Positions 59,208 through 64,000 of a DNA stretch of 64,000 nt are shown one piece after another. Within the stretch, counting starts at the first letter, position 1. Each line of letters begins with the position of its first letter. A program made the position numbers and the translations under genes. The notes beneath the pieces are model-generated. The model was not told the DNA's origin and did not search any database. It was given only the letters and a program-made list of their open reading frames with translations. Origin of the DNA: Bacillota bacterium (GTDB lineage: Bacteria; Bacillota; Clostridia; Oscillospirales; Oscillospiraceae); the NCBI GenBank assembly GCA_030529825.1, contig JAUMWD010000002.1, forward strand, positions 120,789 to 184,788, read 5' to 3'.

Positions 59208-60209
59208 TTAAAGCTCCATGTTTGCATATGCATTCAGGTCACTGCCTGCCGTGTTGCCGGCGAGATACTCAAAATATCCCTGGCATCCAATCATTGCCGC
59301 ATTATCTCCACACAGCTTGAGAGGCGGTACATACAGCTCATAGCCTTCCTTCTCCGCCGCAGCCTTAAAATCAGCTCTGATACGGGAGTTTGCCGCAACA
59401 CCGCCTGCAATGGCGATTTTCTTATAGCCAAGCTCTTTTGCCGCCATCATTGTTCTCGGCACAAGAGTATCGCTGACTGCCGCTGTAAAGGAAGCCGCAA
59501 GAGATGCTCTGTCAAGCTCCTCACCCTTCTGCTCCGCATTGTGGACAAGGTTAATCACCGCGGTCTTAAGACCGGAAAAGCTCATATCATAGGGCGCGCC
59601 GTCAATATTTGTTCTGGGCAGCTTATATTTTTTATCGTCTCCACCCTGGGAAAGCATATCAATGGGTTTGCCGCCGGGATAAGGCAGGCCCAGTACACGG
59701 GCGGTCTTATCAAAGCATTCTCCTGCCGCATCGTCCCGTGTAGCACCGATTATTTTCAGCTCCGTATAGCTGCGTACATCAATTATCAGGGTATTACCGC
59801 CGGAAATTGCAAGGCAAAGGAAGGGCGGCTCCAGCTCGGGATAGGCAATATAGTTTGCCGCAACATGGCCCTTAATATGGTGAACGGGAATAAGAGGAAC
59901 ATCAAGGCTCAAGGCAACCGCCTTTGCAAAATTAAGTCCGACGAGCACCGTTCCGATAAGGCCGGGAGCATATGTAACCGCAACGGCATCTATTTCATCC
60001 CGTGACACGCCGGAAACATCAAGTGCTCTCTGGGCAAGACGGGAAATAACCTCCACATGGCTGCGGGAGGCAATTTCCGGGACAACACCGCCGTAAACAG
60101 CGTGCAAATCAGCCTGTGAAAAAATCTGATCGGTAATAACCTTTCGTCCGTCCTCCACAACCGCTACAGCAGTTTCATCGCAGGAGGATTCAAAAGCAAG
60201 AATTTTCAT
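59208..60209 (-). CDS. tsaD: tRNA N6-adenosine threonylcarbamoyltransferase
   Basis: TsaD transfers threonylcarbamoyl to A37 of ANN-decoding tRNAs. The ASKHA fold starts ILAFESSCDETAVAVVEDG; metal ligands are in HHIKGHVAANY; SGGNTLIIDV and AIAGGVAANSRIR are conserved. 333 residues. It lies next to rimI, as is typical. Confidence 0.97.
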   Translation of the reverse strand: MKILAFESSCDETAVAVVEDGRKVITDQIFSQADLHAVYGGVVPEIASRSHVEVISRLAQRALDVSGVSRDEIDAVAVTYAPGLIGTVLVGLNFAKAVALSLDVPLIPVHHIKGHVAANYIAYPELEPPFLCLAISGGNTLIIDVRSYTELKIIGATRDDAAGECFDKTARVLGLPYPGGKPIDMLSQGGDDKKYKLPRTNIDGAPYDMSFSGLKTAVINLVHNAEQKGEELDRASLAASFTAAVSDTLVPRTMMAAKELGYKKIAIAGGVAANSRIRADFKAAAEKEGYELYVPPLKLCGDNAAMIGCQGYFEYLAGNTAGSDLNAYANMEL

Positions 60210-60219
60210 AAAATATACC

Positions 60220-60666
60220 TCATTTCAGGTAGCTTGTCATAAGTATAGCATCTTCAGTGGGCAGAGTGTAGTAGTTTTTTCGTCTGCCGACATCTGTAAA
60301 GCCATGTTTTTTATAAAGTGCTCTGGCAGCCCCGTTGCTCGCTCTTACCTCAAGAGTCATAAAACAGAGTCCGAGCTTTTCGGAAACGGCTTCAAGCTCG
60401 TTTATGAGTCTATCGGCTACGCCTATCCGTCTATACTCTTCGGCTACTGCGACATTTGAAATATATCCCTCATCAAGGACATACATCATGCCCACATAGC
60501 CCATCACATTGCCGCATTCACTTTCCGCAATAATAAAAACATGGCTGTCATCCGGCATCTGCGAAAGCAGCTGTTCTCTTGTAAAGGGTACGGAAAAGCA
60601 GCGTTTTTCAATATCCAAAATCTGTTCAAGATGCCGGGATTCGGCGTTTACGATACTGTATTGCAT
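60220..60666 (-). CDS. rimI: ribosomal protein S18-alanine N-acetyltransferase
   Basis: A GNAT fold of 148 residues with the acetyl-CoA loop VAEEYRRIGVADRLINELEAVSE and the end LEVRASNGAARALYKKHGFTDVGRRKNYYTLPTEDAILM, characteristic of RimI. It is next to tsaD as usual. The start is 1 base after the zincin-fusion stop. Confidence 0.92.
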   Translation of the reverse strand: MQYSIVNAESRHLEQILDIEKRCFSVPFTREQLLSQMPDDSHVFIIAESECGNVMGYVGMMYVLDEGYISNVAVAEEYRRIGVADRLINELEAVSEKLGLCFMTLEVRASNGAARALYKKHGFTDVGRRKNYYTLPTEDAILMTSYLK

Positions 60667-60667
60667 A

Positions 60668-61453
60668 TCAGTCCTCTAAATTAAGCTCGTCAATTACCGT
60701 CAAAGCAGCATCCTGCAGCCTTGTCATGCACTTTTTCCAGCCAATAGCAAGTATCGGCGGCTCAATATCATCACCTGCAAGGCACATTATCTTGTCGTCG
60801 AGGTTTTGGTAACGCTGTGACAGAAGCTCGGCCTGCCCCATGGTCATGCAAAGTGCCACATCGTATTGCTCGAGCAGCTCACGGCTTACACATAAGGGTT
60901 TAATATGTGAAATATCAATCCCAAGAGCTTCACAGGCCTTTACAGCCTTTGGATTAAGCTCCGCCGCGGCATTCCCTGCCGCCCCGGCCGCTGTGGAAAC
61001 CTCTGACGCGCAGCCGATCTTATTGCAGTCAAAAACCACTTTTGCGGCAGGTGCAAGGGCAGAACAATCATCATCCACAAACAGAATGCTGTGTACATCA
61101 ATACCGTTAAAACCGTACAGCTCCGCCTGACGCTCATCCCAGCGTTCAAGGCTTCTGTCCCCTGCCATGCTTTCCACATGATGAGTCAGCTCGTGGTGCA
61201 AGGTCTTTTTAAGGCGCTCTCTAAAGAGTTCATCATCCATTTCGCCGTAGAGCTCAAGATAAGAGCCATAATATAGCTCAATATGTCTGCCAAGAGCATT
61301 TACAAAATAGGTGCCGAGCGTCACCGTGCCGTCATCTGTGACATGGGCATCCTCCATGAGCAGGACTCCGCCATTGAGCTCCTTGAATATGCCCTCGGGC
61401 AGTTCATCTATAAGTTCACCTAAAACCTCTAACGCTTCTTCATAGTTCAGCAT
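60668..61453 (-). CDS. zincin metallopeptidase (PF06262-like) fused to a degenerate low-molecular-weight phosphatase domain
   Basis: Residues 1-~118 are a small zincin: MEDAHVT, a beta-strand YGSYLELYG and HHELTHHVES with HExxH (His87-Glu88, His91) match the PF06262 type. Residues ~121-261 follow the LMW-PTP/arginine phosphatase fold closely: HSILFVDDDCSALAPAAKVV aligns with the P-loop, STAAGAAGNAAAELNPKAVKACEALGIDISH and ELLEQYDVALCMTMGQAELL with the rest. The catalytic Cys is Asp, the P-loop Arg is Leu and the DPY Asp region reads EPP, so phosphatase activity is probably lost. ATG at 61453 has GGAGG 7 bases ahead and overlaps the polA stop by 1 base (TGATG). Function is unknown; it may sense phospho-arginine or a ligand and steer the peptidase. 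Confidence 0.75.
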   Translation of the reverse strand: MLNYEEALEVLGELIDELPEGIFKELNGGVLLMEDAHVTDDGTVTLGTYFVNALGRHIELYYGSYLELYGEMDDELFRERLKKTLHHELTHHVESMAGDRSLERWDERQAELYGFNGIDVHSILFVDDDCSALAPAAKVVFDCNKIGCASEVSTAAGAAGNAAAELNPKAVKACEALGIDISHIKPLCVSRELLEQYDVALCMTMGQAELLSQRYQNLDDKIMCLAGDDIEPPILAIGWKKCMTRLQDAALTVIDELNLED

Positions 61454-64000
61454 CAATGTGCCTCCGCCCAGCTATGGCCACTCTTCGCTTCCGCAGTCAG
61501 GGGAACAGTCAGCGCGGCTACATTTTCCATCTCATCTTCAAGGATTTTCATTACTATTTCAACCTCATTGTCGGGGCATTCGCATATCAGCTCGTCGTGC
61601 ACCTGAAGAATGAGCTTTGACTCAAGTTTTTCGGCCTTTAGGCGTTTATATACATTAACCATGGCAAGCTTGATAATATCTGCCGCCGTGCCCTGAATTG
61701 GCATATTCAGCGCCACACGCTCGCCGAAGGAACGCTCGTTAAAGTTTTTGGAGTGAAGCTCATGAAGCTCTCGTCTGCGGTTATACAAGGTCTTAACATA
61801 GCCGTCTTCCCTTGCCTGTTCAACAACATTTTTCATATAGTCGTGAACTCCGCTGTATTTTTCCAGATAAGCATCCATATACGCTTTAGCTTCATTGGGA
61901 AATACGCCGATGTCCTGCGCCAATGACCATGCAGATATGCCGTATACAATTCCGAAGTTGACCGCCTTTGCACGGCTTCTCTGGAGACTTGTTACCTCAT
62001 CAACGGGCGTATTAAATACCTGGGATGCCGTTACACGATGAATATCCTCGCCGCTTGTAAAGGCACCCTGCATGTTTTTGTCTCCCGATATGTGGGCAAG
62101 AAGGCGCAGCTCGATTTGACTGTAGTCTGCATCAACAAGAGTTTTGCCTTTTGACGCAATAAACATCCTTCTGATTTGGCTTCCCAGTTCTTTTCTCACC
62201 GGGATATTCTGCAAGTTCGGCTCGGTGCTTGAAAGTCTGCCCGTGGCTGTAACCGTCATCTGGAAGCTCGTTCTGATTCGTCCGTCATTTTTATCAATAA
62301 GCTTGAGCAAGCCGTCAGCATAGGTTGATTTCAGCTTTGTGAGCATACGGTAGTCGAGAATCATCTCAATAACGGGATGCTTTCCCCTGAGCTTTTCGAG
62401 AACATCCGCATTAGTGCTCCAGCCGGTTTTCGTCTTTTTGCCCGCAGGCAGCATTAGCTTTTCAAAAAGCACATCGCCAAGCTGCTTGGGAGAATTAATA
62501 TTGAACTCACAGCCCGCAAGCTCCCATATACCGTCGCGCAGATTGTTAATTCCCTCGTTTAGACTCTCCCCGAATTCTGCAAGTGCCTGTTTGTCAACGA
62601 GAAAGCCTGCGTGCTCCATATCGGCAAGCACCTCACACAGCGGCAGCTCGATTTCATAATAGAGCTTGTCCATATCAAGCTCGCGGAGCTTTTCTTCAGT
62701 AGCCTGCTTCAGATACCATATTGCCTCCGTTCCGTGGAGCTCGGTATCAAGATATCTCATGGAGCTTCGCTCAAGAGAATACTCCTTGTCCGTTGCGTTC
62801 AGAAGATAGCAGGCAAGTGCTGTATCATACACAAAGCCTTCTACCGGCAGATTCTCCGAAATCAGCAGGTGCATAAAATCCTTGACATTGTGGGAAATTT
62901 TTTTAACCTTATCGCTGAAAAGAAATTCACGAAGCTGATCAAATTCGCCCAGCATCATGCTGCCCCACCAGGCAAGGTATATATTTTTGCCGTCACAGAT
63001 TTCCAAACTGTCAAAGCTCATTTTGCCGTCTTTAGCTACTTCGGGCAAAACGGCAACAAATTCAGCATTCAGCACGGCATTCTTTATAGTTTCAAAGTCA
63101 GCATTTTCAATTCTTTCAAAATGCTTGACCGTATCAGAACGGCTTACTGCCTCTTCGTTTTCAGAAAGTCCCCACTTTTCGATGAACTTATTAAAGCCTA
63201 ATTTCTTGAAAATTCCGTAGAGCTCCGGTCTGTAGTCACGGTTCCACAGAGCGTCCTCGGGATTAAACTCAATGGGTGCTTCCCTGCATATTGTGGCAAG
63301 CTCATAGGAGAGTTCTGCGCTTTCCTTGCCCTCACGCAGCTTTTTACGAACGCCCTCTTTGATTTCAAGCTCGTCAATATGCTCATAGATATAATCTATA
63401 CTCGTGTAGCGCTGAATCAAATCCATTGCGGTTTTCTCACCTACACCTGCAACGCCGGGAATATTGTCGGAGGAATCACCCATAAATGCCTTCAGGTCCA
63501 CAATGTGTACAGGCTCAAAACCATACTCATCTCGGAAAACCTCGGGGGTATATTCCTTTGTTTCAGTCTGTCCCATGCGGGACTTGACATGGCATATATG
63601 CGTCGTATCGGAGATGAGCTGAAAGCTGTCCTTATCACCGGTAACAATACGGCAATCCCAGTTTTTCGCCTCACAAATTCTTCCCACGGTGCCGAGAAGG
63701 TCATCGGCCTCATAGCCCTCAAGCTCAAGGCGCTTAATGCCCATGGCGTCAAGCACATCCTTGAGGATGGGCATTTGAACCGCAAGCTCCTCGGGCATAC
63801 CCTTGCGCTGTGCCTTGTATCCCTCATACTTAAGGTGTCTGAAGGTGGGCGCTTTCAGGTCAAATGTTACGCAAAGGGAATCGGGCTTTTCAGCATCAAC
63901 AAACTTTTGCATAATGCTGAGGAAGCCGTAAATTCCGTTAGTCGGAGTTCCGTCAGGTGCATTCATAGGTCTGATGCCGAAGAACGCACGGTTTACTATG
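61453..64000 (-). CDS. polA: DNA polymerase I (5' end cut by window edge)
   Basis: At the window end it reads IVNRAFFGIRPMNAPDGTPTNGIYGF, the start of the 5'-3' exonuclease, so only about the first 10 residues are missing. The exonuclease domain (residues ~1-290), a middle domain and the polymerase follow, with DADYSQIELRLLAHISGD (motif A), KAVNFGIVYGIS (motif B) and QVHDEL (motif C). In the middle domain the Asp-x-Glu of exonuclease site I is replaced (FVAVLPEV), so proofreading is likely inactive, as in Bacillus Pol I. About 848 residues visible. It overlaps the zincin-fusion start by 1 base. Confidence 0.96.
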   Translation of the reverse strand, partial: IVNRAFFGIRPMNAPDGTPTNGIYGFLSIMQKFVDAEKPDSLCVTFDLKAPTFRHLKYEGYKAQRKGMPEELAVQMPILKDVLDAMGIKRLELEGYEADDLLGTVGRICEAKNWDCRIVTGDKDSFQLISDTTHICHVKSRMGQTETKEYTPEVFRDEYGFEPVHIVDLKAFMGDSSDNIPGVAGVGEKTAMDLIQRYTSIDYIYEHIDELEIKEGVRKKLREGKESAELSYELATICREAPIEFNPEDALWNRDYRPELYGIFKKLGFNKFIEKWGLSENEEAVSRSDTVKHFERIENADFETIKNAVLNAEFVAVLPEVAKDGKMSFDSLEICDGKNIYLAWWGSMMLGEFDQLREFLFSDKVKKISHNVKDFMHLLISENLPVEGFVYDTALACYLLNATDKEYSLERSSMRYLDTELHGTEAIWYLKQATEEKLRELDMDKLYYEIELPLCEVLADMEHAGFLVDKQALAEFGESLNEGINNLRDGIWELAGCEFNINSPKQLGDVLFEKLMLPAGKKTKTGWSTNADVLEKLRGKHPVIEMILDYRMLTKLKSTYADGLLKLIDKNDGRIRTSFQMTVTATGRLSSTEPNLQNIPVRKELGSQIRRMFIASKGKTLVDADYSQIELRLLAHISGDKNMQGAFTSGEDIHRVTASQVFNTPVDEVTSLQRSRAKAVNFGIVYGISAWSLAQDIGVFPNEAKAYMDAYLEKYSGVHDYMKNVVEQAREDGYVKTLYNRRRELHELHSKNFNERSFGERVALNMPIQGTAADIIKLAMVNVYKRLKAEKLESKLILQVHDELICECPDNEVEIVMKILEDEMENVAALTVPLTAEAKSGHSWAEAH

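Follow-up and report, generated by a model that had tools for sequence, protein, structure and literature searches.

The polA-rimI-tsaD locus and its two-domain gene

In the 64,000-nt stretch of DNA analysed here (the window), a gene between polA and rimI-tsaD encodes a zinc peptidase-like domain joined to a domain that resembles a low-molecular-weight phosphatase (LMW-PTP) and lacks its catalytic residues. What does a dead phosphatase do behind a zincin? The original prediction for this locus was that a pseudophosphatase, by binding phospho-residues, gates the protease. The gene, its domains and its neighbours are listed in Table 1. The stop codon of polA overlaps the start codon of the fusion gene by one base (TGATG, at 61453), and a one-base gap separates the fusion stop from the start of rimI (60666). 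The predicted one-base couplings are thus real, and the steady production that had been read from the operon position follows only weakly from it. The adjacency to polA was left out as functional evidence.

Table 1. Features of the fusion gene and its operon. Coordinates are positions in the 64,000-nt window; the fusion gene, polA, rimI and tsaD are all on the minus strand.
Feature	Position	Strand	Description or basis
Fusion gene, zincin + pseudo-LMW-PTP	60668..61453	(-)	261 aa, ATG start
Mini-zincin domain, aa 1-111	61121..61453	(-)	2EJQ similarity, conservation, AlphaFold/Foldseek
HELTH motif, aa 87-91 (H87-E-L-T-H91)	61181..61195	(-)	H, E and H invariant in relatives
Pseudo-LMW-PTP domain, aa 122-261	60671..61090	(-)	Pfam, AlphaFold/Foldseek, alignment
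Former phosphate-binding loop, aa 127-134 (DDDCSALA for CTGNTCRS)	61052..61075	(-)	Alignment with slot relatives
Site of the lost general-acid Asp, Pro232 in this protein (DIEPP in place of DI-x-DP)	60758..60760	(-)	Alignment
polA, upstream neighbour, past the window edge	61453..63999	(-)	
rimI (GNAT), downstream neighbour	60220..60666	(-)	
tsaD, t6A synthesis	59208..60209	(-)	

The N-terminal half is a predicted mini-zincin

Residues 4-113 matched 2EJQ (TTHA0227) in a phmmer search of the PDB (E=1.5e-9), and a profile comparison with the same protein gave E=7.5e-20. The AlphaFold model of the zincin half alone, obtained with a separate zincin alignment, had a pLDDT of 95. Foldseek returned 2EJQ as the best match to this model (E=1.2e-7), with 38% identity in the structural alignment, and also matched 3E11 (E=7.1e-5). 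A structural likeness to a DNA-protein crosslink protease (6MDW) was rejected as not significant (E=0.24). The Pfam model Zincin_1 (PF06262) scored the window protein at 17.0 bits, under the curated cut-off of 22.4, and matched 5/19 fused relatives at E 0.01. Since this Pfam model is weak for the branch and both the fold and the similarity to 2EJQ are strong, we refer to the domain as a mini-zincin homologue.

H87, E88 and H91 were invariant across 53 stand-alone and 31 polA-slot zincins, and the extended stretch H87-E88-x-x-H91-H92-x-E94, together with D106, was essentially invariant in these 84 relatives. The published mini-zincin motif, which includes the third ligand, is HExxHxxGxxD; the window zincin reads HHxE...D instead, leaving E94 and D106 as the invariant candidate ligands. 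The third zinc ligand is not settled in the 2EJQ structure either, and the characterised PF06262 mini-zincins are without demonstrated zinc binding or peptidase activity (PMC3890501). The claim of a zincin with an intact HELTH motif is borne out by the motif itself, by the modelled mini-zincin fold and by the retention of HExxH among the fused relatives.

The full-length AlphaFold model had a pTM of 0.59, with the placing of the two halves relative to each other not fixed. The zincin half reached a pLDDT of only about 40-75 in this model, which we attribute to the shallowness of the fused set.

The C-terminal half resembles an LMW-PTP that has lost its active site

The Pfam LMWPc model matched the window protein with E=1.3e-4 and 22.6 bits, slightly under the cut-off of 23.2, and matched 17/19 fused relatives at E 0.01, the best with 1.6e-13. 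Residues 122-258 were modelled by AlphaFold with a pLDDT mostly above 90. The best Foldseek match of this half was the LMW-PTP YwlE (4ETN; E=1.3e-10, TM-score on the target 0.84, rmsd 1.8). Because two independent fold assignments are combined in an architecture that is conserved across eight genera, the fusion lies far beyond chance.

To compare the pockets, 28 fused proteins were aligned with 14 stand-alone LMW-PTPs from the same operon slot. The P-loop residues C, G, N, C, R and S and the D-P general acid were intact in 14/14 of the stand-alone enzymes, and CX5R was found in 0/28 fused proteins. In the window protein the P-loop Cys is replaced by Asp127, the Gly by Asp129 and the Arg by Leu133, and the catalytic Asp by Pro232. 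Across the fused set the Arg was Leu in 27/28 and Met in 1/28, the Gly was Asp (D129) in 25/28, and the general-acid Asp was absent in 28/28, with Pro in its place in 20. The Cys position was more variable, with Asp in 19, Cys in 6 and Ser in 3 of the 28; the Cys is kept in two genera, namely in part of g1 and in g238. The replacement of Cys by Asp, considered as a possible mark of all fused relatives, therefore holds for the window protein and is not universal, and it was rejected as the family's signature in favour of the losses of the P-loop Arg and the general-acid Asp. Since these two losses are universal and the Cys survives in two genera, the Cys was probably lost later. Collectively, these results support the prediction of a fold kept without catalysis. 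The observations named in advance as contrary to it (an intact CX5R in fused relatives, another fold in the C-terminal half, loss of HExxH) are absent: CX5R is missing from all 28 relatives, the fold is that of an LMW-PTP by model, and HExxH is kept.

Control of the protease by a pseudophosphatase that binds phospho-residues would be compatible with the intact zincin motif and the retained PTP fold, and binding-type pseudophosphatases have been described in eukaryotes, such as MK-STYX (PMC4257672). Such gating needs a phosphate site, however, and the sequence has lost it. The Arg and Gly of the phosphate cradle are gone, the loop carries a one-residue deletion in 11/28 fused proteins, and over its eight residues it holds between one and four net acidic residues (mean 2.3) in every one of the 27 fused rows analysed. 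In addition, some lineages have the zincin but only a shortened PTP domain or none. A search for the arginine kinase McsB with PF00217 and NF002194 demonstrated none, but the control genomes gave no match either, so that this result has no bearing on the question. We consider gating by phospho-residues very unlikely.

The fusion was found in a single family, in a slot that elsewhere holds a phosphatase

The fusion was detected in 28/401 genomes of the window's family, spread over eight genera, including 6/6 genomes of the window's own genus. Samples of 341 class, 394 order and 399 phylum genomes yielded no fusion from any other family; these samples overlap in part, and those of the order and phylum were searched at a strict E-value of 1e-38. 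Exact peptide patterns, applied to one genome per species, recovered only three close relatives, and profile and six-frame searches were needed to reach the others. In these samples the only carriers belong to a single family of gut Clostridia. Across the order and the class, stand-alone zincins are frequent, and those read lie away from polA.

In other families of the order, the slot ahead of rimI and/or tsaD is occupied by a stand-alone LMW-PTP in which CX5R and DP are intact (L063-L071, L073 and L108); in most loci that reach far enough polA adjoins it, and at L069 the PTP had no visible tsaD next to it. Within the window's family, g187 and g12 likewise have a stand-alone PTP of intact signature before rimI-tsaD (L140 and L141), with a polA fragment upstream of it in L140; the zincins of g187 lie elsewhere in the genome. 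In the fused genera this same slot, after polA and before rimI and tsaD where readable, is occupied by the fusion.

In a tree of the PTP domains, the 21 full-length fused domains formed one clade (100/100), which grouped with the slot PTPs, apart from LMW-PTPs of the DPWY type. This common descent with LMW-PTPs makes the fused domain a homologous pseudoenzyme rather than a member phosphatase. In the zincin tree, the fused and polA-slot zincins formed one clade (99/93). Together, the trees argue for one origin of the dead PTP domain and one origin of the polA-slot zincin. The window's genome encodes a second LMW-PTP elsewhere (C18:170189-170614; L034 / L072), of the CHGNICRSP, DPWYTGDF type and with an intact catalytic signature. 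Derivation of the C-terminal half from this other LMW-PTP was ruled out by the tree.

The domain is not retained in full everywhere. About 27 internal residues are lost in six proteins (g11 and g185), and the polA-slot zincins of three genera (g219, g223 and g228), which fall inside the zincin clade, have no PTP domain and abut or are fused to RimI. The zincin of g219 may represent the pre-fusion state; the small number of columns behind the zincin tree leaves its position uncertain. We also observed a zincin-pseudoPTP-RimI fusion in g211 (L157 and L158) and a zincin fused straight to RimI in g228 (L175). The PTP-less slot zincins of g223 (L173 and L174) and g219 (L176) end in short tails, both with a GGGY stretch.

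The dead domain evolves faster than the zincin and is still constrained

Selection was estimated by the Nei-Gojobori method, pooling dN/dS over six close pairs and leaving pairs with saturated dS out of the ratios. The pooled dN/dS was 0.125 for the zincin, and 0.33 and 0.23 for the N- and C-terminal halves of the dead PTP. The dead domain thus changes at two to three times the rate of the zincin, yet it is clearly constrained. The altered loop had a dN/dS of 0.22, on only 48 synonymous sites. Several residues (D129, L133, Q207, C224, W239 and E256) are conserved in the fused set and not in the stand-alone enzymes, which suggests a new constraint rather than plain decay.

These data bear on the possibility that the dead PTP is a vestigial passenger without a job, slowly eroding and kept because its truncation would disturb the start of rimI or the stability of the zincin. 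Its faster evolution is in keeping with such erosion, as are the internal deletions in g11 and g185 and the absence of the domain in g219, g223 and g228, whose zincins adjoin RimI or are fused to it. However, dN/dS was well below 1 in every measured pair, the reading frame has been kept across eight genera, the altered loop is conserved, albeit over few sites, and clade-specific residues are retained (C224 in 26/28 and Q207 in 25/28 fused proteins). We regard a purely vestigial domain as possible and on balance somewhat unlikely.

The conserved loop could alternatively be a new site. Here the acidic loop (V-D-x-D-G/D) would bind either metal or a basic side chain, making the domain a non-phosphate sensor that controls the zincin. 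The replacement of Cys and Gly by Asp127 (19/28) and Asp129 (25/28) would suit such a site, and the loop has accumulated few non-synonymous changes. Position 127 is nevertheless Cys or Ser in 9/28 fused proteins, a metal site is without structural support, and the loop dN/dS is based on few sites. A new binding site of this kind is, in our judgement, very improbable.

Proposed history and role of the fusion

Our preferred explanation, which we hold with moderate confidence, is that the zincin carries a tail which derives from an LMW-PTP, has no catalytic role, serves as a scaffold or binds a partner and is partly dispensable, and that the protein stems from a single capture and fusion. Synteny and the trees indicate that, in an ancestor within one family of Clostridia, a mini-zincin gene entered the polA-PTP-rimI-tsaD operon and was fused in frame to the resident LMW-PTP gene. 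The LMW-PTP was probably still active at that time, given that its slot relatives have an intact signature. Catalysis probably disappeared early; the pattern of universal losses suggests that the Arg and the general-acid Asp went first and that the Cys followed later in most lineages. In some lineages the PTP domain would later have been lost or have shrunk.

The zincin is under strong selection and probably does chemistry, with metal binding and peptidase activity as putative functions. The candidate metal ligands are H87 and H91 together with either E94 or D106, and E88 is the putative catalytic residue. With its phosphate cradle lost, the dead domain probably does not read phosphate. It most likely acts as a non-catalytic scaffold that positions the zincin through dimerisation, stability or a partner-binding surface. 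Two PF06262 mini-zincins crystallised as dimers, and the final helix of 2EJQ lies near the interface (PMC3890501). A domain placed directly behind this helix could act on assembly, which we offer as a suggestion only. The absence of the domain from g219, g223 and g228 and the loss of about 27 residues from six proteins indicate that it is not essential and may be decaying. A more specific role, in which the dead LMW-PTP with its acidic loop was repurposed as a ligand- or partner-sensing cis regulator of an intracellular mini-zincin in the polA-rimI-tsaD operon, seems to us unlikely.

Relation to known proteins

The window zincin shares its fold, its length of ~110 aa and an HExxH near the C-terminus with the PF06262 mini-zincins Acel_2062 (3E11) and TTHA0227 (2EJQ), the proposed M94. 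The PF06262 architectures listed in a 2014 survey of mini-zincins comprise the domain alone, with TPR, or with a TM region and a septum-formation domain, and none has an LMW-PTP (PMC3890501). A full-text literature search returned no description of a zincin-LMW-PTP architecture, which is weak evidence as most subscription papers lie outside such a search; the zincin-pseudo-LMW-PTP architecture appears to be undescribed. It gives the mini-zincins a specific covalent partner.

The C-terminal half, with the same fold as YwlE and descended from a slot LMW-PTP according to the tree, differs from YwlE and the LMW-PTPs in having neither CX5R nor the general-acid Asp, in its acidic loop and in its fusion behind a zincin. 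Pseudophosphatases are well known in eukaryotes. MK-STYX, which belongs to another phosphatase superfamily than LMW-PTP, likewise combines a phosphatase fold with a lack of catalysis, but in the window protein the phosphate cradle itself is lost. The fusion offers a clear natural example of an LMW-PTP that has become a pseudoenzyme in bacteria. Since intact-signature slot relatives, shrunken forms and genera without the domain are all available, the successive stages between enzyme and dead domain are directly comparable.

The TsaC/Sua5-LMW-PTP fusions of Clostridia similarly join an LMW-PTP domain to a t6A-pathway gene product, with TsaC as the partner. In several class genomes we observed an LMW-PTP with intact CX5R at the C-terminus of TsaC/Sua5, the threonylcarbamoyl-AMP synthase (L177, 940-2640 (+); L179, L180 and L182). 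Taken with the zincin fusion, these proteins point to a recurring, unexplained link between LMW-PTPs and t6A genes in Clostridia. The TsaC fusions read keep an intact catalytic signature, except for L178 (G985). This minus-strand open frame of 588 aa also encodes a TsaC-LMW-PTP, but its P-loop reads VCKNNRTLSAAAEG and CX5R is lost, so that it is apparently an independent pseudo-LMW-PTP in a t6A gene.
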